From contig NC_134684.1 in assembly GCF_024713945.1 (NCBI RefSeq), forward strand, positions 656,001-720,000: DNA of 64,000 nucleotides, read 5' to 3'. Source of the stretch: Dermatophagoides farinae. Its lineage: Eukaryota > Arthropoda > Arachnida > Sarcoptiformes > Pyroglyphidae. Position numbers and translations under genes: made by a program. The notes under the pieces are model-generated. The model was not told where the DNA came from and ran no database searches. It worked only from the letters and a program-made list of their open reading frames with translations. Below, piece by piece: positions 566 to 32,800 of this stretch. Within the stretch, counting starts at the first letter, position 1, and each line of letters starts with the position of its first letter.

Positions 566-2079
566 ATGTCATCATCACGTTCATCATCATTATTGTTGCA
601 TAATACATTGAACAATCTATATTGGCAGCTTTATTTTGATATTTATAGTCAAATACAAGATGTACAATTACTGTCACAATTATCATCGACAAGTATACAA
701 AAACATATTGAACGTATTGAAAATTTACAAAATCAATTTGATCAATTAATACATGATTATTTTGGACAAAATTCCAATCATTTTGCAAATAATGAATGGA
801 TTATTAATTCATTGATTGAATTACGAAGATATCTAGAAAGATCTCGAATTGTTGCTGAACTTGCATTGGATCGAATAAATGTTACATCATCATCGCCATC
901 TCTACTAACAACAAAACAAAAAGAAATTAGCAATGATGATGATTGTTACAATGTTGAAACCCAAAGTGAATCGAATGTTTTGAATGCAATGGCCAATCCA
1001 TTTCATAGTACATCAAACATTTCGAAAACAATTCATTATTATGATCAATGGCAACAACAAACAGCATCCACTGTTGATACATTGTCTATTCATCATGTTG
1101 TTGAGCATGATAATGAATCGAAATCGGTGCAAAGTGTTGAACAACAGCAAAAACAAATAAACTATTCGATTCAAAATATTACTTTAAATGATGATGATGC
1201 AGCAATTATGCAAACAACAGTTGTCAATCAATCAGACAATTTGGTATCGAAACGTCCAAAAATTCCTTTAAAAATATATGATGAAAATGGTCAACCTGTT
1301 GATTTGGCTTCACTATCATCAAGTTTGGCCAGTGCAGCTAAAAAATCGAATAAATCTGATGGTGATGAAAACGTTTCTTCAAGTGCAACAATTGATGAAC
1401 AATCAACTCCATTCAAGGAAGAAAATTTTTCAAAAAATTCTTTCCATAATTGGAAATTGAAAATTCTTTTGGCCGATCTGAATGCATTGAATATGGAAAA
1501 TAAAATTTCCGAATTTATAGCTTTATCATTTGAAGATTCTATAAGTGGTGATGATATTGAAAGACATTTGGAACAATTGTATCGATTAGATGAATACACG
1601 AATGATGAAGAATCGTTTAAAACTCATTTGAATTTTCTTAACAAATTATTTGAATTTTCATTTGTACAATTGTCTTTTATGCTACGTATGTATGATCATC
1701 TCTTGCAAACATATAGCCAAATGGAAGCCAGTTCATCACGAAATGATTTTTTGATCGACTGTTTTGCTGAATTTTTCACTATTGCTCGACCATTAATCAA
1801 CAACATGATAAACAAAGACCATGACCATAATGATGAATGTAATCGAATTCGATTTATTTATTTTAAACGGCTATTTCAACGATTATCAGACATTCGTCAA
1901 AACTATCAAAATGGTTGCCTTGATTTATCAGAGAAAAATGTTCGGTAAGTTTTTGTTTTTGTTTTGTTTCAAATCTATATATTCTCTCTGATCATCATCA
2001 TCATATTTACTTCAGAATCATTTCGATGGCCATTGGATTCATCAATAAAAATCAGTTACAATTCTCTTTTGATGGTTGA
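566..2079 (+). CDS. Unrecognised 480-aa protein, two exons
   Basis: Exon 1 is 566-1944 and exon 2 is 2016-2079. They are joined across a 71-bp intron (donor GTAAGT at 1945, acceptor TTCAG ending at 2015). Splicing restores an Arg codon and adds 20 residues ending in SFDG before TGA. The N-terminal ~110 residues look helical (Leu/Gln-rich, repeated Ile/Leu spacing). The middle (residues ~110-285) is Ser/Thr/Gln/Asn-rich and probably disordered. The C-terminal ~190 residues are again helical and hydrophobic, with many Phe and Leu. No signal peptide, membrane segment or catalytic motif is visible. I do not recognise the family; a helical adaptor or complex subunit would fit. The ATG follows an A-rich leader (ctaaaaaATG). 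AATAAA near 2174 is the likely poly(A) signal. The coding frame is long and nearly uninterrupted, so the gene is probably real. Confidence 0.75.
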
Positions 2080-2586
2080 GCAAATAAAGTCAGCGATTCT
2101 TTTTCCACTTTTTTTTCCAATGTAATTTAATTTGTGTTTATCAAGCAAATTATGAAAAAAAATTGATATACAGAATAAAACGATTTTTTTTAAAAAAAAA
2201 CGAATAATTTTTTTTTTCATTTATTGACAAATCAAAACAACAAACAATACAAAAAAAAGAACAAAAAAAAAACGGAATGATGACTGTGAAAATTGATAGA
2301 GATTGTACCGGTGGAATATAATGATTCAATGATTGAATTTGTCATCATCATTGAAAATAGAAAAAAAAGAAAATGATTTTGATGATAAGAAACCAAAACA
2401 ATTGAAAAGAATGGACAATGAAAAAAATTTTTTCGCCATAATAATATGTAATGAGCGTCAATATCGTTATGGTTGATTTTGATCAAAGGTAGATATATTT
2501 TATATATTCGAGATGGATTTTAGAAATTTTAGACTAGAATTCCCAAACGGGAAAAATATTCAAATTTCATTCCATTCCATTGTTGA
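2080..2586. terminator. Convergent 3' ends with poly(A) signals on both strands
   Basis: The plus-strand gene ends at 2079 and the minus-strand zinc-finger gene stops at 2587. AATAAA occurs on the plus strand at 2174-2179. The complement TTTATT lies at 2220-2225 and would serve the minus-strand transcript. The two predicted cleavage sites are therefore roughly 50 bp apart, and the 3' UTRs may abut or overlap. No other gene is seen here. Confidence 0.4.
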
Positions 2587-2649
2587 TTACATTGGTTGTT
2601 GTTTCGAAACAATAATCGAATGATTTGAATTCATTACTGCTGCTGATGA

Positions 2650-2683
<34 letters not shown>

Positions 2684-3993
2684 GGTGTTGTCAATAATGT
2701 TGTAGTGGTGGTAGTATCATCTGCCAATTGAAAATGTGTTGCTACCGATGTTAATGATGATTCCAATATATCGAAATCCGATTCAGTGAAACAGGAATCC
2801 AGGATTTGTTCAAATATGGTACGAAGTTGTTTTTTTCTTGGCCGAGATTGTTCTTGTACTGTTTCCAATCCTTTCTCCAATGAGACAATTACTAATCCAT
2901 TGCTTTGTTGTTGTTGTTGTTGTATTGCGGCGGTATTTATTGTCGATGTTGATGCCTGCTGTGCAACTGCTGTTGATCCGATTGTATCGTTTGACATAGT
3001 CATCATCATTGATGATGGATTAATCGATGTAGATGTCGATGCTGATGATGATGATGAATCTGCAAGCTGATATGATTGATGTGTTGGTTGATATGTCATT
3101 GCCTGGAATGAACTATTTATTTGTTGTTGTTGCTGAACCTGTTGTGAAACTTTGGCCGTCGGAATTGTCGTAGCTGACATCAATTGTATTTGCTGTGTCT
3201 TCGTGGTTGTCGTTTGTTGTTGATTGTTTTGATTATCGATCAATTGTTGAAAATTCAACTGATTCAACGTAGCTGAAGATGACGGTAAGGTATCACTTTG
3301 TGTCGATACATCTACATGTGCCAGATTTGTTTTCATTGTCGTTGTTGTCGTTTTTTCAATTGGTATGGCCATCAGTTTATTGCTAGGAGATGTAGTCAAT
3401 ATCTTAGCAGATCCTAATGAGCCCCCAGAAATCTGTACCTGAAATGAATGGGCAGTAGCCGATGCTGTTTGTGATGATGATTGGTGTAAATGTTGCTGAA
3501 GCTGTGTTGGATTTGAATGATTCTGATGTTGATGAGGATTGGTCGTTGTTAGTACAAGATTACCACCGACAGCTGACAAATTAACCAATGGTAAATGTAT
3601 AAGTTTTGATCCTCTTGTAGCGCCGGTTGTAGCTAATTGAATATTTCCTGCCGATGCTAATCCGGCTAATTGTTGCGGACTGATTTGTATAGTTTGTTGC
3701 TGCTGCTGTTGTTGTCCATTTGGTGTAGTAGCAATGGCTATCACCTGATGATGTTGATTGTTATTGGCCGTAGATAGAAAATTCGTTTGCAACAGTTGAC
3801 CCATTTTTTGTTGTTGTTGTTGTTGTTGTTGATGTTGCTGTATTTGTACTTGTACCGGTGTTTTTATTATCTGTTTACGATGATTGGATTCTTTCTGTTT
3901 TTTTGGCGTTTTAGGTGAAACTGAAACAGATGATGTTGATGAAGCTCGTTGTTGTTGTTGATTATCGGGCAATTTTTGTTGTACAGTCGACGA

Positions 3994-4027
<34 letters not shown>

Positions 4028-18827: not shown

Positions 18828-21800
18828 TTATTCAACAGTAACAATCATTGCTTCACCTGGATCTAATTGTAATGATTTCATTATAAGAAATTCACTTGTA
18901 CGATTAATATTGGTTGCCATTTGTATGATTGAAAAATGAAATTTATCTGAAAAATCTCTAACAATTGTTTCATTGCCTAGATTTGCAAACACAACATAAC
19001 GATAACGTTTGTATTTGGATAATACATCTATATCATCGCCAACCATTAATCGATGATGATTATCGACCGTTGTAATCATTGTTGATGATTTGGATGGATT
19101 TATACGATCAAAATATTGTTCCAATACGATGGTTGTTTGATCAATGTAATGGAATAGATAATTTATTCGATGATTTAATATGGATGATTTCGATTCTTTG
19201 GTCAGCAAATTCTTTTTATTATTTTGATTATTAGATGATGTTGAAAATTGTTGATTTTGATTTAAAGATTTGGTCTCCAAATCATCAATATAAAGAAAAT
19301 CCAAACGAAAATTAATCAATTCGGCAACAATTTTAACCATTTCTGAACGTTTTTCCACATTAATATGTGTATAATCCGGATGAATTGGTAACCATGATGA
19401 TGTGGATACATTTGGCAGACTAAAATTACCATTCGGTGATTCTGATGACCATGCCATTGGACATAGTTGACTGCCGATGAAAACCTTTTTTTTTATTTGA
19501 ATAAAATGACAGCAAAAAAAAAAGAAAAAAAATTATTTCAATAAAACAAAAAGAGTATATTGACCAAAACAAGAGAAACAAACAAACAAACAAAAAAAAT
19601 GTCATCCAGTCATTTTTTTGTTGTTTTTCATTTTTCACTCATTTTGATTAATTAATTAATTAACTTTTAATCATTGAAAATAAATCCCAATTGGGATTTC
19701 ATTTCATTCATTCATTCATTAATGGATTCACATTCATTTTGAAAATCTTTTTGTTTTCCAGTTTAACCATCATCTGGCTGAATAATTTTATTTCAATGTT
19801 GAAATTTTTATTCAAGTCCTTGTTGTCTGTTTCGTTGAATTATTATTTTCATTTCTTTTTTTTGCTGTTGTTGTTGTTGTTGTTTTACAAATTAAGCTGA
19901 TTACACACACACACACACACAAACAGTAGTTGCAGCAGTACTGAATATTCTGGTGAATAATAATGATTCGAGTTGGAAGCAAAACATCAACAACTAAACA
20001 TGTGACACTGGGAAAATTTTTTTTTTTTTACAAAGTAAAAAACTTGGTATCACATGATACCTAAGACTTGGTGTGTTGAACATGTTGACGATCCAATTAA
20101 ATTTACCACCATGATTCGTATGATGAGATAATAATTGACAATTTTTTTTTCATTTTTTTTTGTTTGTCAAAAAAAAATGAAAAAATCGTAATATCACATT
20201 ATATTTGATGATGATGATGATGACAAACATGAAAAATGTCAAATATAGTAGTAGTAGTAGTTGACAATACAAATGATGGATTTTTTTTCAGTGAAAAAAA
20301 AACCAATCATAGTGGTGGTCAGAAAAAGTGTTGACATTAACACTGTCACACACACACTAACAAAAATTGTCAAAAGATGAGAAGGATTTTATTTTATTTG
20401 CTTCTCATCATTTTATTGTTGAAATTGAGAATTAAAAAAAAACTGCAAACAGTGTGAAGAGAGGTCATATCGTCATCATTAAAAAGAATTTTTTTTTCTG
20501 CAACGACAAAATTGTCATTTCTTTTCTTAAATTTTTTTTATTTGTGTCTATTAGACAAGCAACAGCAATAAAAAAAAGTAACAAAAACCTGAATGAAATG
20601 AAATGAAAAAAGAAATCATACGAATGTTTAGGATTCGACATCGACAACTACAACAACAACAACAGCAAGAAATTTGAAACCACGAAAAAAAATCAAGATT
20701 TATCAGTGACATTTGTTTATTTTGCGTTTATTCGATTAGTCAGAATAATAATCACATAGTATCCGAAACCCCCCAAAAAAAAATAAGAAAACAGAAAAAT
20801 CCATTAAAAATAAATCACCACCACCAGCACAATAATGATGAAACGGAGAAAAACATGGGGCAGAGGCCACTGATGATGATGACAATCATCATCGAATTTG
20901 TTTTTTTTCCCATAATCATCGTCATCATTATTATCAAACAAAATGGAAAAATCTTGTAACCAAAAAAAAAACAACAGCAAAATTTTCTTGAATCATTTGA
21001 TAATTATCGATTCGACAAGATTTAATGATTTTTTTTTCATCTTTTCCACTTAGATGTATGTGATATGTGATTCGAACAACCAAAGATTATCTCAAACGAT
21101 TAATGATGGTTGTTGTTGTTTAAATGGAGAAAAAAAAACATTGGGATAAATCAATTATGTTTTGATTTATATGAAAAAATATCAAACATGGGCAAAACAA
21201 AACGAAAAAAAATGAAAAAATTTCATAGACGTGATCACATGAATCACGAATAAATTGAACTGAATCAGATTCATTTTCGTTTCATTTCGATTCATTAAAT
21301 GAGCTTTGAATGTCAAAATGTCCTTAGTTTGCAAATATATGAAAAACACACAAGGATGAAAAGGATCGAGATTAGTTATTTATCTATATCGCTGTTGTTG
21401 TCGTGTTTATTCAGACAGATTCTCTCAGAGGTTTTAAGAACCAAGTGTCCAAGACAATGCAATAATCGAAAAAAGGAAAAATTAAAAAAAAACTTTCAGA
21501 TCCTTCGAAACTAAATTCTCGGGTGAATGGCTTCTATGTTACATGTGTTACAAACACTCAAGCCAAAAATGAAAAAAAAACAAGTCATCCGATCAATAAT
21601 GAATGAAACAAGTGAAAAAAAATCAAGTACAAAAGCAGCACCAAGTAATAATGATAAACAACAAGCGATAAATAAGGGGAGAAAAGGAATTTTTTCATTG
21701 TTGTTCAAAATTCAAAAAAAAAGACAAAATTCGTTGTCATCCACCACCAATTGGAATGTTCAAAAGAAACTCAAAATCGGGATTTTTGTCGCCATCATAT

Positions 21801-24800
21801 AAATGAAAAAAATGATACGAATCGAATCCATTATTTATATTCGTGGATTCTCGATCCACAAACAAACATACATCAAGTCGAAAAATGGATAGAGACAAGT
21901 TTTTTTGTGGCTATTACAATTCCAATTTCAAATATATGAAAAAAAATTGGTTTGATTGTGTGGCAGCCCACCGATTATTATTGCTTGATGATTGTATGTT
22001 GGCTGAATGTGAATGTTGTTTTTTCAATAGTTTGTTATTGGTATCTGTGTGTGTGGAAATAAACAAACAAAAAGATAATCCCAAAGAATGGGAAAAAAAC
22101 TTTTTATTTTTCACATTTTCATTTTCACACATAAACACATCTCCAGCGGGAAAATAAATGAATATTTCTTTCTTGTTTGTTTCAACACTTTTTTTTTCAT
22201 TTGTATTCAGCCCCCAAAGATTGGTCGATTTATTTTTATCATCCATGGTCATTGTTTGGTTCGAAAATCAACATTAAATATTGGGGAATTTTCATTCAAA
22301 AAGTCAAGAATTCACATATTCTTCTCCTAGAATCGCATAACAACGAAAAAAAAAAACAAAAAAAACCCATTCTCTTTCATTGTTTTAATGTGCATGTGTG
22401 TGTGTGTGTGTATCACATGTAAATAAACAAGATCGATATTAATATTTTTTTTTATTATTAGGTCATATCATCATCAACAACAACATTGAATCTTAATGGA
22501 GAGAGAGAAAAAAAAACAAAAAACACCTAGACAATGGCTGGAAAAAAAAATTGAAAACATTAACATGTATTAATAACAATAATAATAATAATACAACAAA
22601 TGAAAACTTGATCAAGTGAAAAGCCATTGATTTTCATATATTCAATATTTGTTATTGTTGTTGTTTTTATTCTGTAGATAGGAATATGGAATATTTCCAT
22701 CAAAATCACAAAGTCACTGAATGTTAATTATATTGTTGTGTTTATGTGTGTGTGTGTGTGTGTGTAAGAAAGCCAAAAACCAATCAGCTTTTATTACACA
22801 ACATATCGAAGGTCAATAGTTAATTAATATTGAAGAAATAAAGAAAGCAAAACAAGAAATACATTTCAAATCACAAAGAATTTAGCAGAATTTCATTGTT
22901 TTTATTCTGTAGAAAGGCAATTTATTTATGAGAAAGTTTTTATTTTCAAAAAGGGAAAAAAATTCAATTTTTTTTGTTCTTCTTCTCTGTTGAAAATCGA
23001 CCAAAATAGTGACCGAAAACAATTCTATAGAATGCATCATCATTATTATATATATATAAATGCCAACAAATTCAACTTGGAACTATCCAATTCAAACAAA
23101 AAAAAAAGAAAGAAAAGAAAAGAAAAAACTTTTAATTCACGCTCATTTCAATCTATATATATATTTTGTTTGAGTCTCACATTCATTCACTTTTTTATCA
23201 AGCTCATCATGATGATGACGATGTTATTTTTTTTTTGTTCTCGTAAGAAAAAACAATATTCTTGCCCATTGACAGAAAGCCATGCATGGAGAGAGAAAAG
23301 GAAAGAATATGATGATTGCCTCGCTAATGATGATCAAAACAGAAACCAACAAAAGCAACGAATTAACTTTCATAAACAACGGAACAACCAGAGAATATAA
23401 AATAAAGTTGAAGAAATAAAATAAAATGTCATCATCATCATTTTTTTTATCTTTTCCTTGAAAATAAAAAAAAAATCTTTGCAAGTTGATCGTTCAAATT
23501 TTTGTTGTTGTTATTGTTGTTTTATTTTTTTTATCATTGTTTTTGTTTCCACTTTGCACACCCAAAAGTCCAACAGCATCATCATCAGCAAGACATCATA
23601 ATAATCATGAAATGATCGTGATCATAAAAAAACAGAACAAACAAACAAACAGAAAAAAATTGATAACATCTAACACGAATCAAATCGCTGTGTAAAGTAG
23701 TCAAAGATCATCATCGCTGTTCAACTGTTTTCAGTGAAAAAAAAGGAAAAAAAACATTTTTTCCGATTTCTGTTTTCACTGAAATCATTCACACTTTAAA
23801 GATTTTGATTACAACGGTAAAACATGACTTTTTTGCGTTTTTTTTTTTGAATGTTTTTACGCAATTTTTTTTGTAAGTGTGTGTGTGAATGAATAAATTA
23901 AATATAGTCAAAATTATTCGTGACAACAACAACAACAACAACAAAAAAATATGAAACAATTGAAAAATGAGCAAAAAAGTTTCATTTCAAACTTTACAAC
24001 AACAACAACAACAAAAACAAAAAAAAACTAAAAAATGAAAAATAGCAATCATCATCCATCGATAGATAATATTGCTGCTGCTACGATGTTTTTTTCATAC
24101 TATTTTCAAACAAACAAACAAACGAAAACAAATGAAAAAAAAATGAAATTCAATAATCTACTTCTATACTGGAAAGGAAAAAAGAAAAGAGAAAAAAACT
24201 TTTTCTGCATCTTCTTCTTCTTCTTCTTCGTAAGATATTAATGCCATTCTATGAATTCTGGCAGTAAATAAATGTGTTCTGGTGTGCTGGTGTGTGTGTA
24301 TCATGAATATAAATTATTCGAGAAATGAGAAAAACTTTGGTCATGATAGGAAAATGAGATGAAGAAAATTTTCATTTTTGCAAAAAAAAAATCTTGAGCC
24401 TTTTCAAATATTTATCATTAGAATATACAGCCGATGATTAAACAAGTAGCAAAATGAAAATAACATTGATGGCCCATAACATTTCAATAAAATGAAATTG
24501 AAATTGAATGTGGGCAAAGAAAAAAAAAACATAGCATGTCATTGCAAATCCAAAGAGATTATTATTTGAACAAAAATTTTAATCTTTTCAAGAAATGAAG
24601 AAAAAAAATTACAATCATTTTCTATGCCAAATGCAAATGGCAAAGAAATGAAAAAATTTTAATCAATAAACACACATGTGCACACACACAGACAGCAGCA
24701 GCGGAAAAAAATGAACAAAATTTCTCTTTTCTTATTAATTTGGAACCATCAAAATTATTCACAAATAATGAGAAAAAAAACGAAAAAGAAGAAGAAGAAA

Positions 24801-27800
24801 ATTATTACTGAATCAATAAAAATTTTGGATGAAAATTTGAGACAGAAAATCGGCTGCATTGTTTGATCAAGATAAAAAAAAATTCTGGACTAGATTCTTC
24901 TAAAGACAATCAATCGTGAATAAGCTTTGATCGAAAAAAAAACGAAACGAAAAATAAACCGAAACAGAATGCGATGAACCGAAACGAGAAAATAAAAACC
25001 CTCTTGTATGGATTGGATGATATACCACCACCACTGCCACCACCACCATTGGAAAACCAATGATAATTTATTGGCAGTCATATGAAAAAAAAGAGAAATA
25101 GAATTTTTTCATATGAATAAAAAAAAATGTCAACAGTATAACTAAGAAAAAAAATATTCAAGTCATCAACTCTGACTATCAACAACAACAACAACAACAA
25201 CGGAACAACCAATAATCGTTATGATGATGATGATGATAATGATCATCTGAAGAAGCAGCAGCAGAATATTCAACGAAAGAATATATTCATTTCCGCTATA
25301 TTTTCTTCTTCTTTCTTTCTTTCTTTTTGAAGAATATTCTTATGATGGAAAATTTCTATTGATCGATTGAAGAAAAAAAAAATAAATAAATAAATATCGA
25401 TAGTAAACCGTAGCGATATTTATATATGTGAAAACGGAAAACACAAATTTGAATCAATTTGAATAATCATCATCATCTTCATCGCTGTTATCAACTTTTA
25501 TTCACTTTTTTCAAGCTCTCTGAGTGTATTTTCACAGTAAAAAAAGCATCAAACATTATCAATATCCAATTGATTATGTGGCACATGCACTCACACACAC
25601 GCACACACACATTGACATAAAATTGATCATTCATTGATCTTGGATTATTCATTTGTGAAACATTTGGTGGAAAATGAATTCATGGTCTCGAATAATAATG
25701 ATAATGATGATAATGTATAGCCACCACATCATTAAATCATTTTACGGTGTCATCATCATCGTCATCATCATCATCGAACGAATGAATAATGGAATTTTTT
25801 TTCCAGAATAAAAAAAAAAGAAAAAATCTAATGAATTTTACATGCACAGAAGAAGAAGATGAAAAAAAATCAATTTTGTTTCACAACTGAAAATTAATTA
25901 CCAAAAAAATGAAACAGAAAAAAAAATTTTGTGAACTGAGAACCTAGTGGATCAAAGTCAATTAAAACGAAAACAAACAAAAACGAAAAAATTGGAAAGG
26001 GCACCGGGTGGTTTTCGGTGAAATCTGCCCCCAAAAATTTTATTTTTTTAAAATATAAGTCATGTCCATTGATGATTCTCGAGATGGTTTTTAGTTCATT
26101 CGGTCCACCCACTTCCGGTAAAATCGCAAAAAACAACGCGAATTCTCCAGATCTCACTAACTATGAGGTGGTGTAAGTCAATTTTTTCTCACGATAAAAC
26201 TGATTTAATCAACATTTTATTCTGAAAATATCAAAAAAAAATATTTGGTGGAACATGTTCAAAAATCCGGAAGTTCATTTTTTCACCATGTAAGTCTATG
26301 GAGTTCATCATGTGATATCCACAACGTAAGTGTTTATGGTGTTCATTATGTAAGTCTATGATATTGTGCATATTGCAATGGCAATCGATGATAGTCTGAA
26401 CTAAAAACATCCTGATACATCGTTGAAGGATTTTATTGTTCATGTATTAAAATGTGTATGATAAGAATCAATCGGATAAAATCTCTGAATCCAATATCCA
26501 ATACGAAAATATCACCAGGTTGCAAAATACTGGATAAGCCATTAGTTTCTTGGAGAAGAACTTTCAATATTTAGGCATCATTAAGTTTGGCGTTAAGTAG
26601 TCCTGGAACGAATGATTCACCTGATCATGTCCATTAGCCACTCGAATGCTGTACTCAATGATGATGATATGTTGGAATATAATGAATGTAATGAATTATG
26701 CCAACAATTGATCAGTAGAATTGTAGAAACAATAGTACCACATTGTGTATAAATACGTAATTGTTATAGAACATTATATACTTGAATGACCTTTGCTTTA
26801 CCCTTTTGTATACGTTATTTTGTTCTTGTGCTTTTCTTATTTTATTTGCATATCATATACACATTTTAATACATGAACAATAAAATCCTTCAACGATGTA
26901 TCAGGATGTTTTTAGTTCAGACTATCATCGATTGCCATTGCAATATGCACAATATCATAGACTTACATAATGAACACCATAAACACTTACGTTGTGGATA
27001 TCACATGATGAACTCCATAGACTTACATGGTGAAAAAATGAACTTCCGGATTTTTGAACATGTTCCACCAAATATTTTTTTTTGATATTTTCAGAATAAA
27101 ATGTTGATTAAATCAGTTTTATCGTGAGAAAAAATTGACTTACACCACCTCATAGTTAGTGAGATCTGGAGAATTCGCGTTGTTTTTTGCGATTTTACCG
27201 GAAGTGGGTGGACCAAATGAACTAAAAACCATCTCGAGAATCATCAATGGACATAACTAACATTTTTAAAAAATAAAAACTTGGGGGCAGATTTTGACCG
27301 AAAACCACCCGGTACCCTTTCATTCGAAAAACAAACCCAAAAACATCAACATTTTTTTCTACAACCAATACAGAAGCTCAATGGAATTTCAGTGGAATTT
27401 TTTTTTATTTATTAACAAACCAGACAGAAAAACTAATGAGGACACACATACACACACACACAAAGTATGGATTGAAATTGTGTGTCTGTGTGTGTGTGTG
27501 TTTTTTTCCAAATAATTGGTGTCCTTAATGCAGTTGGTAATTATACGAATCTATGAATGTTTCATTGTGTAAGTAATGCATACACATCATCACCAACATG
27601 GCCAAAATAATGACACAAACACATATACAGACACAAAAACAAGCGAACCATAAAAATAATTCTTCTTATTCATTCTAAATAACAACAACAACGGCGACAA
27701 CAACAACAACGAGAGCAAGAATAATAGAAATCAGAATAATATAATTGTAAATGATATATAAAATATGATGATGGAATACAGAATAAAGAGTTGCCACACA

Positions 27801-29791
27801 CATATTTAATTCATAATACTACTACCACCCAGAATCATTCATAATCAACAACCAAAAAAAAAAAAGAAAAAAAGATTGATTATAACCTCCGGGGTTAATA
27901 TACAGCACACACACACACACACATATCTTTTTCATTAGAATTTCCAACAACTCAATTCTCACAAATACAGACACATTTAGAATTCATCTTTATTCATAAT
28001 AAAGATGAGAATAAATTATTATTATTATTATAACCTAATTCTTGTAATATCAATACAGGCAACGAGAATAGTGAGAGAGAGAGAAAAGAAACCTTTACAA
28101 ATTCAAAGATCCCCGATATAATATAATTTCTGGAAAAATGAAATTATTTCGGTCTAGGACCTAGGTATACACACGCACACACACACACACAAACATATTC
28201 TGGATGCTTGGAGTATGGAAATGAAAAAAAAAATAGAAAAAGAGATTGAGTCCGAACAACAACAAAAAAAATAATCATCAATCAAACAAAAGAGAAAAAC
28301 CGTCCAACCATTCCATTCTTTCATTCAAAAAAAAACACTGAAAAAAAATTATTATCCCACCACCACCCCCATCATCATCATCATCATCATCAGTTGATGG
28401 ATTAATTATGAACAAAAAAAAATTTTTTTTTGTTTCACAAAAAAATGCAAAGTAGTGAAGCCAACATTCAGTGAAAAAAAATTGAAAAATTAAAAAATGA
28501 ATTTTTTTTTGCTTTGTTTTTTTTTGTTTTTGTTTGGCGTCATATTGAATTGACTGACCCGAAACTACGAATACAAATCCAAATAAAATGTACATCTTCT
28601 TCATCATCATCATCATCAATGAGACATCATTATAAAGAAGTTCACCCGCTCATTTTTCATTGTTGATTTTATATTTTTATTTTTATTTTGTTTTTTACAA
28701 CAGCAGCAGTATTTTTCATTTATTATGAGCCAAAAAAAAATGAGCTAAAAATGCCGACAATAACAACAACAACAACAACGGCAACGGCAAAAAACGAGAA
28801 AGAGAGAGAGAGAGAGAGAATTGAATGAAAAATCGATTATACGTCACACACACACACACACACATAGAATGAACATTTTTGTCGATGCTGAAAATAGATT
28901 CACACAATGAAAGAGAGAGAAACAAAAATCTATTTTGGATCTAGAATGAACAACAACTATGGCCTGAACAAGTCACCAACTGCTGCTGCTGCTGCTTATT
29001 CTTACTGTGGCTGGCTGATTGGTCCAAGTTGTTATTGACAATAATTAATTTATCAAAAAAAAAAAAAAAAAAAAACACTGAAAAAAAATTCTGTTTGCTT
29101 CACTGAGAAAAATACACACACACACACACACACACACAGTTTTGTTTTAAACTTTTTAAAGATATATATTCAAATCAAGTGAAATAAAATTGCCACACAT
29201 GTAGCATATTTGAAAGAATTCAGGAAAAAAAAGAGTCAAAGTTTAAAGTATCCAAAAAGAGAGAGAGAAATAAATCTATTGACACCAGAGAATCAAGAAT
29301 TTCAATAAAAAACGACGACAACCAGAAGAAAAAAAAAATAATTTTTCAATTGATGCTCTAGTCTAGTCTAGTTGATTTTTTTTTTGTTTTATTCGATTTA
29401 TTCCAACTACTACAACTTTACCATAGATTAAACACACACACACACACACACATAGACAGACCAATTTTTTTCCACCATCATTTTCAACGATTCATGCCAT
29501 AATGATATTTTCACCACTCAAATATTTGGTTTTCTAAATGATTTTTTTTTTGCTTTTACACTTCTAATATTTGGCTAGTTTTTTTTATGATTTGTGTGTG
29601 ATGATGGTGTGGCTGCTGCAGTATCAAACAAAACAAATCCATTCGACGACGACGACGATGATGATGATCACATTCTGCATTTTTTTTTCTGTGCAGATGT
29701 GTAGACCAATGATGGACGGATGCTGCTGCTGTTTTTTTTTATTGGTGGTGGAAGGGGAGGAAGAACGAACGATATATATACGACAACTGTT

Positions 29792-29828
<37 letters not shown>

Positions 29829-32800
29829 AAAAACCATCATCATCATCAAGAATCATCAAGAAGGAAAAAAAATAACAAGCTTTTCGACAATCATTTTTGA
29901 TGATGGTCTTGATGAAGTTTTTTTTTTGATGGTGTTAGTGTGTGTGCGGGGGCGGTTGGTGGAGCTTTGGGGCAATATAAAATGTCGGAAGGAATTCAAG
30001 TTGATTCACGATTTTTTTTTCTTTTTCTCTTGCCACTCGAAATCCCATTGGATAAAGTGGTGATGCAAGAAGAAAAAAAAAGCTTTAGCCAGAAAAAAAA
30101 ATAAAAATGGCACACATATATACACAACTTGATTCACAACGATCATCATTACCATCATCATCATCATCAATGGCTAGTGAATGTGAATGAAGAAATAGGG
30201 GCAAAAAACCACGGCAATAATTACCAGAAAACAAAAAAAAACACAGAAAAAACAATCATCAGAATCAAAAGAAGAAAAAAAAGTGTACCAAAAAAAAAAA
30301 AAAAAAAAAACTTGGTAAAACAGGCGCGGTTACACACTGATGGACTTACTGACTGACTGACTTATTATTAGTCACATCATCTGGCTATATGGTATGGATA
30401 AATAAAATTTGATATTTCTTAATGTTTGATAATATATCCAATAATGATGATAATGATTTTTGGTTAATGGTGGAAAACACAGATAGGGCAGATAAAAAAA
30501 AATGACAAGACCAACAATAATCTGAATGACAATTTGAGAACAAACATCATATCACTGGTTAATAGAAAACAACAACAACAACAACAACAACATCTACTAC
30601 AACTACAACGATAATAGCAGTGACAATAACAGCAGTAGTAAGCAGCAATGATTTAGAATTAGTTTCAGGAACATGTAAAAAAAAAAATTGGAATTAATTT
30701 CATGATGATAGATGAATGAATCATGATTGAAAATTGAAACCAAAAAAAAAAAAAAAAAAAATGATCGATTGTGATTTGATATCCACACAACAATCTCACC
30801 GTTGTTGTTGCTGTTGTTGAAAGCTTTCTAAAAATGTTAAAGAATCTTATCGAAAAAAAACAAGCAAAAAAAGAATTTCATTCAAGTGACACAATGATGA
30901 AGCCAGAAAACAGAAAAAAAAATACACTGATGATGATGATAATTTGATTGGAAAAAAAAGACTAACAAAGTATGAGATCAAATTCCATTTTTTTTTATTC
31001 CAATTTTAGATAATTATCATCATCATCATCATTGGATTATGGGTGTGTGTGTGTGTAATCGATACAATCGATATTTCGGTGTTTTTCTTCTTCTCACTAA
31101 TATATAAATATAGAATAGAGAGATAATCCTATTTTCATTCCTAATTTGATGAAATAATAGAAACGAGAAAAAAAATATTGCTACATTAGTTTTTTACATG
31201 CACAACAACAACAACAACAAAAAAATCACATTTGACCATGATGATATCATAATCACATATCATCATCATCTAAATCTAAATCTGCAGCTATTATATCGAT
31301 AATGACCAAACTAATGACAAAGAAAATAGCAACAAAAACAACGAAACGAAACAAAACAAAACATCAAATCAAATCGACTTAAGTCGAAATTATTGGACAA
31401 CAACAACAGATTCAATTACATAATAATCATGGCAATAACAAAAACAACAACAACAACAATGATGATGATGATGGTGGTGATAATGACAACAAAGATTGCT
31501 GGGCCAACAGAGATTGTTGTTTATTTTTTTGTTTAAAAAGAAAAAAAAAAACAGAAAAAGATGTAACATTTCATCATCATTGTATTTATGAAAAGACCCA
31601 CAAAAAATCGATATATTTTTTTTGGACCCGAGTTTTTGTTTCGATTTTCATTTTCATTTTTTTTCTTTTGATCGACCATTTGGTTGGTTTTTTCTTGTTT
31701 GTGTTGTGTGTATGTGTGTGTATACAATTAAAATTAATTATGATCATTTGTTTTCAAACAACCCAAAACAAACCAAACAAAGAAAAAAAACGAACAGTCA
31801 TTAGTAATGGACGAAAAAAAAAGTTTTGATATGTTGTTGTTGTTGTTGTTGTTGCAGTTACACTGCTACTCCAATTTCATTTCGATTCGAATTGGGTTAT
31901 TTAGAGTTTTTTTTTTTTAAAAAAAGCGGAAACACAAACACAAACATACACACTGAGTAACACAGTAAGTAAAAAGTGAACAAAAAAAAATTTTATCTAC
32001 TTACATTATGGCTACGAAAATCATAAACATTTGAAAGACCAATTTCATCACCATAGAATATACTGATAGTACCGGGCATCATTGCCAATACAAACAGGCT
32101 GGCCAATGAATAATTTGTACCATTCATACGATTAACAAGACGTTTATGTTTTGTACTGCCACCAATACTCCACATAATGGGTGGAAAATCCAAAGGTCTA
32201 TTCAAGAATACATAATTCATTTGATCTCGTATATTGTCAATCCGGTTTGGCTGTAATTTAAGCTCAAAATGTACTAAATCAAAATAATGATATATAGATC
32301 TTATTGATGATTTAATGATTAATGATTTATTATTGAAGTTGGTCGTAGTCGTTGTCGTTGTCGTCGTAATACTATTCCGTTGTTGTTGTTGTTGTTGTTG
32401 TTGTTGATGATGGTTCAAAATCGATGATGAAAATAAAGAATGATTCAATGATTTAGAGGCACTGGAAATACTACTAGATGATGGTAACATTTTATGTGAA
32501 TTGGCCAATATTTTTGGATAACCATCCTCTTCATCACTTATTGTTGTTGATTCTGTTGGATCAAAAAAATCATTCATATCTAATTCATCGAATTCAGGAC
32601 GAAATTCATTCTGTTTATTATTATGTAGTGGTATTGATGGTGAATAGTTGTTGCCATTAAACATTGTTTGTTGTTGCTGATGTTGCTGATGCTGCTGCCT
32701 TCGTCGTCGTCGTCGTCGTTTTGCAGCTGTGACTGATGATAACAATGGTGATAATAAATGGCTTGAACAGATCAATATCTTTTTTGGTATTTTTATCATT

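Follow-up and report, generated by a model that had tools for sequence, protein, structure and literature searches.

The long inverted repeat in a predicted intron of Dermatophagoides farinae is very probably a DNA transposon of the cut-and-paste kind, non-autonomous and Spy-type (PHIS superfamily). It is related to L015, an element of 4.1 kb in the same genome that has an open transposase frame. The window, i.e. the whole stretch of DNA analysed, is C8:656001-720000 (64 kb), and its source is a dust mite, as the first-pass annotation had supposed. On C1 of the same genome, a group-2 allergen gene encodes a protein nearly identical to Der f 2 in the PDB, and Der f 2 is placed on chromosome 1 in the published D. 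farinae assembly as well (PMC11074847). That annotation proposed the repeat as a hairpin source of siRNAs. The features of the element and its surroundings, in window coordinates, are as follows.

19485..32004, minus strand: intron of 12520 bp predicted in the GH13/SLC3A-like host gene, from donor, acceptor and alpha-amylase pieces in the flanking frames
25996..25998, no strand: AAA half of the AAATTT insertion site
25999..27317, no strand: putative Spy-type transposon, non-autonomous, over its whole length of 1319 bp; C4:4848886-4850204 matches it at 100%
25999..26459, plus strand: left terminal inverted repeat, with end type A in the outer ~70 bp
26460..26856, no strand: 397-nt loop that separates the arms; the C4 twin has the same sequence (100%)
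26469..26609 (C8:682469-682609), minus strand: broken transposase-gene fragment, corresponding to aa 465-511 of L015 with one stop and 70% identity
26669..26856, no strand: 188-bp second segment of the loop, also present at 98-100% identity in four other copies
26857..27317, minus strand: right terminal inverted repeat, with end type B in the outer ~70 bp
27318..27320, no strand: TTT half of the AAATTT insertion site, from the flanks of two-ended copies

The inverted-repeat scan returned arms at 25995-26459 and 26857-27321 (465 nt each, 97% complementary, 397 nt apart), which is exactly the span 25995..27321 annotated at first, and this was the sole inverted repeat of at least 80 nt reported across the window at seed 14. 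Comparison of the two-ended copies places the element borders at 25999 and 27317. When the two arms are compared without gaps, 14 differences are found in arm positions 1-63 and one (at 103) in positions 64-461, and the longest identical run is 358 bp. The arms had been described as identical over the inner ~400 bp; they are indeed near-perfect there, but one mismatch lies within the inner 398 bp. RNA of the host-gene strand is predicted to form a full-length hairpin at -863 kcal/mol (a value with no shuffle control at that length), in agreement with the earlier statement that the transcript could form a long double-stranded RNA. A structured RNA family was rejected, since the Rfam search of 25900-27400 at E 0.1 gave no match. 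Each arm also contains the same 71-codon open frame, at 26231-26446 (minus strand) and 26870-27085 (plus strand).

Three open frames on the minus strand (36050-34107, 33234-31993 and 19532-18828) match the Pfam Alpha-amylase family at 2-85, 312-360 and 387-437, with E-values of 1.5e-16, 1e-5 (both above the curated cut-off) and 0.0041 (under the cut-off), respectively. An in-phase donor (AAT/GTAAGT, first intron base 32004) and acceptor (AAG/GTT, last intron base 19485) join the last two frames, and the resulting length of 12520 bp assumes that no small exon lies inside boundaries which are predicted from sequence. Among the PDB matches of the first frame are rBAT/SLC3A1 chains, ranked below insect and bacterial GH13 proteins. 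The placement of the repeat inside an intron of an SLC3A-like gene is thus supported, as a predicted intron of a GH13/SLC3A-like gene. Because the element lies in an intron, transcription with the host gene is expected, and the element would then be spliced out. A passenger of this kind might influence its host, with the hairpin altering splicing, editing or expression of the GH13/SLC3A-like gene. We consider such an effect rather unlikely: the element sits within a single predicted 12.5-kb intron and the genome contains an ADAR-type deaminase gene, but its distances to the donor and the acceptor are 4.7 and 6.5 kb, and both splice sites are intact.

A search of the mite's own genome with the left arm found at least 32 matching stretches, grouped into at least 16 places; this is a lower bound, and some of the places are fragments only. 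The first-pass annotation had suggested looking for other copies, and these places carry the arm sequence in whole or in part. At one of them, C4:4848886-4850204, the full 1319 bp of the window element recur without a difference between unrelated flanks. Nine copies of this family (family 1) keep both ends, the window copy and 8 others. Since the arm sequence is scattered and the twin has other flanks, a dispersed transposon family has these arms as its terminal repeats, and the identical twin on another chromosome suggests that the window copy moved recently. In the two 4-kb stretches flanking the C4 twin, 10 frames of at least 90 codons are present, none of which is gene-like by eye.

The dispersed copies also bear on the assembly. 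Molecules joined to their own reverse complement produce near-perfect inverted repeats, so a false palindrome of that origin would look much like the one observed. However, the flanks on either side are distinct, the two outer ends are of two distinct types, the loop is unique, and the same structure is present at other places in the genome. An assembly palindrome, which the first-pass annotation had named as the case that would overturn its reading, was rejected because copies with the same arms lie in different flanks, and we regard it as virtually impossible.

A consistent insertion signature is found at the ends of the copies. All of the 10 two-ended copies (nine of family 1 and one of family 2, described below) begin with GGG, end with CCC, and are flanked by AAA on the left and TTT on the right. 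With ~35% A and ~35% T, such flanks are estimated to arise by chance at ~0.002 per copy; the count covers two-ended copies, as seven of the 16 places lacked the second end. Direct repeats of 2-10 bp were not found around these 10 copies, whether the border is set at GGG/CCC or at AAA/TTT; at the GGG/CCC border a direct repeat is impossible, because A stands against T.

Family 2 shows the insertion to the base. It is represented by L060 689-4756 (C1:3958188-3962255), a 4068-bp element with 590-bp arms that are 98% complementary, flanked by AAA and TTT, whose transposase is 55-56% identical to that of L015 over aa ~156-786 and contains one stop. L060 sits in a repeated host sequence, which has three frames of at least 120 codons and three empty relatives (L074, L075 and L076). 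Compared with the joined flanks of L060, two empty sites match at 200/200 bases and the third at 190/200 with a 9-base gap, and all three contain one AAATTT. Therefore, family 2 inserted without target duplication. When the joined flanks of the nine family-1 copies were searched, the listed matches, from 40 scored candidates out of 71, contained no acceptable empty site; a single one of them spans a family-1 junction, C5:1661310, but it is A-rich with 77% identity and was set aside. For family 1, the claim of no duplication is based on its own flanks together with its sister family 2.

The relative with an open transposase frame, L015 (C8:3217004-3221149, 4146 bp), has the same arms around a 791-codon frame. 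This frame matches Pfam DDE_Tnp_4 (E 4.4e-15) and DDE_Tnp_1, and its C-terminus is SWIM-like below the cut-off. The residues D420, D500 and E549, counted from the first ATG, are likely to be the catalytic triad. In a comparison of five related pieces, the first D is present wherever its position is covered (3 of 3), and the second D and the E are each conserved in 4 of 5. A PDB sequence search with the transposase gave no match. Between the N-terminal Cys-rich part and the catalytic part of the frame, L015 1863-2103 consists of about four tandem units (TAGTSKTLT-like). Further broken transposase relatives are present in L061 (C10:1249820-1253689), where two stand side by side, and in L064 (C4:655243-656037), which covers an N-terminal part; the scan for inverted repeats of at least 40 nt found none in L061 and a 44-nt low-complexity pair as the only one in L064.

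Other transposon groups with long terminal inverted repeats, namely ISL2EU, PIF/Harbinger and Foldback/MULE elements, were considered as the source of the arms, and we judge such an origin highly improbable. The DDE_Tnp_4 domain matched by L015 is also common to PIF/Harbinger-like transposases. However, no AT, TWA or 9-bp duplication flanks the copies: PIF/Harbinger was rejected because the TWA target duplication is absent, and Foldback/MULE elements, which make a 9-bp target duplication, were rejected for want of it. ISL2EU, the sister group of Spy (PMC11304231), resembles the mite elements in its DDE transposase and in a GG start that is usual in ISL2EU as well (PMC4482050). ISL2EU is described as duplicating AT at the target, and most of its elements have a second ORF with YqaJ (PMC4482050). 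It was rejected because the AT target duplication is absent here. No second Myb/SANT or YqaJ ORF was seen in L015, whose next longest frame has 127 codons; the Pfam scan covered the 791-codon frame.

The features of both families agree instead with published descriptions of Spy, which is reported to prefer AAATTT, to leave no target site duplication, and to have a transposase of ~700 aa and terminal inverted repeats of 5-691 bp (PMC11304231). In the mite, insertion between AAA and TTT is seen in every two-ended copy; duplication is absent, from flanks without repeats and three family-2 empty sites; L015, with 4146 bp and 791 codons, lies within the element length of 1165-5910 bp and above the 500 aa of the DDE transposase ORF that characterise Spy; and the terminal repeats are ~461 bp in the window element and ~590 bp in family 2. 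One DDE ORF of ~700-800 codons with this target is likewise described for cgSpy of Colletes gigas (PMC11304231, PMC4482050), whose terminal inverted repeat of 467 bp (PMC11304231) is close to the ~460 bp found here, and both species have a very young copy pair. The window copy departs from Spy and cgSpy as described there in being non-autonomous, in the partial reversal of its interior and in carrying an unexplained segment of 188 bp. Its two unlike outer ends (types A and B) may be a further difference. The assignment was made by target site, absence of duplication, ORF and terminal inverted repeats against the published descriptions. Most known Spy elements are from insects, but seven arachnid species have them too (PMC11304231), and D. 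farinae may be one of the seven. Literature searches found no paper on Spy DNA transposons in dust mites and, for Harbinger with Dermatophagoides, none on transposons as judged from the listing.

The interior of the window element points to its derivation. Because the loop holds a broken piece of the L015 transposase gene, the window element is, as its sequence indicates, a non-autonomous derivative of a transposase-encoding element like L015. Compared with L015, this fragment is reversed relative to the ends. The whole loop is shared at 99% by two further copies on C3 and C2. The 188-bp segment has no match in L015 and is therefore not explained by deletion of this intact copy; pieces with 77-92% similarity to it are found at C10:1993362, C3:6744482, C2:5449860 and C6:1137565.

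To describe how the arms evolve, we compared 22 arms of 13 copies, leaving out C2:285-286 kb, C1:6367-6368 kb and C5:4037 kb as fragments. By their outer 70 bp the arms are of type A or type B, and each of the nine two-ended family-1 copies has one of each. On average, the outer 70 bp are 83% alike within a copy (79.7-87.0, nine copies), while the same end type is 97% alike between copies (111 pairs). The inner arm behaves differently: the mean within a copy is 96% (92.8-99.7; 99.7% in the window copy) and that between copies is 94% for either end type, although the pairs are not independent and the within-copy excess is small on average. The window left arm is 91.9% identical to the left arm of L015 and 88.1% to its right arm, less than the 99.7% between the two inner arms of the window copy, and the close copies on C3 and C2 are 98-99% identical to the window arm, nearly matching the likeness of its own two arms. 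In the arm tree, 3 of the 17 inner forks are well supported. Of 11 non-autonomous copies, three of which were judged from one end, 10 have the interior reversed relative to L015; the exception is C10:26798, whose right end is missing.

From the above, the following course may be proposed. Transposase from an intact copy would recognise the outer ends, conserved as types A and B, excise the element and insert it between the AAA and TTT of AAATTT without duplicating host bases. If the two arms of a copy recombine or undergo gene conversion with each other, their inner ~400 bp would stay alike, and the same exchange would flip the interior; exchange of this kind probably explains both the inner-arm likeness and the reversed interior. 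The reversal could also be a single inherited event, since the non-autonomous copies share ancestry, or could come from another, unseen autonomous relative. RNA of an element transcribed with its host gene could fold back, and any siRNA output would be a by-product.

The proposal of a hairpin-siRNA source goes further: the intron would be transcribed, the arms would pair, Dicer would cut ~24-nt siRNAs, and other copies would be silenced in trans. The hairpin is long and near-perfect, and the idea is reasonable for this species, as the earlier statement that dust mites lack piRNAs and control transposons by siRNAs holds for D. farinae: it has no piRNA pathway, its transposons are countered by ~24-nt siRNAs that depend on Dicer, and knocking down each Dicer releases multiple TEs from repression (PMC5805368). 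In this genome, 22 Piwi-domain stretches, of any class, are listed. A precedent exists for Tc1 of C. elegans, in which read-through transcripts over the terminal repeats fold back and feed RNAi (Sijen and Plasterk 2003, as cited in PMC3878927). As with Tc1, transposon inverted repeats transcribed from outside can pair; the Tc1 products are reported to be processed by the RNAi machinery, whereas here pairing is a potential of the sequence.

The possible targets were traced by shared 24-mers. Of 19 other loci tested, 14 contain 24-mers of the arms, and in L015 these start at 157 positions. However, the matches in L015 (526-831 and 4344-4626) lie within or at the terminal repeats and do not touch the transposase frame (1650-4025), and the 5 loci of 19 that share no 24-mer include family 2 and the other transposase relatives. 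The normal transposase mRNA may contain little arm sequence, because AATAAA occurs at L015 4236 and 4244, at the inner edge of the right arm; this evidence is weak, because AATAAA is common in such A+T-rich DNA (10 in L015 after 3900). RNA editing is another possible fate of the hairpin, given the ADAR-type deaminase gene, which also counts against siRNA production.

In the main text of the dust-mite siRNA study, the words “hairpin” and “intron” are absent, and “inverted repeat” appears once, about Drosophila (PMC5805368). The siRNA master loci reported there are from the same species and yield transposon-directed siRNAs, but these three loci, which span 62 kb, contain many TE types, have reads from both strands and are not described in that text as single hairpins, unlike the window element. 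The structure is accounted for as transposon ends, which nine copies have in pairs, and a silencing function is not needed to explain it: it is the terminal-repeat anatomy of a Spy-type transposon. Hairpin-siRNA production from the window copy is possible, but nothing found sets this copy apart as a silencing locus, because nine family-1 copies are two-ended and a second family has 590-bp arms. We therefore regard a trans-silencing source as quite unlikely.

A related idea is that, in a species that lacks piRNAs, young intronic Spy derivatives whose arms of 460 bp are near-perfect act as a self-made brake, in which host transcription would make Dicer substrates, and selection or conversion would keep the inner arms identical because the brake depends on their identity. 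Homogeneous inner arms and long arms in two families fit such a brake and do not require it, and we hold it very unlikely.

In summary, the sequence evidence indicates that the window element is a genuine Spy-type transposon, young, non-autonomous and located in a predicted intron, and that its hairpin is normal anatomy. D. farinae would thereby gain two families from a group of transposons whose insertion leaves no target duplication: family 2, whose clean empty sites show the AAATTT rule to the base, and family 1, which has both a very young derivative and a copy whose transposase frame is open. Together they provide a set of long hairpins in a species that silences transposons by siRNAs, which makes the fold-back idea testable with existing small-RNA libraries.
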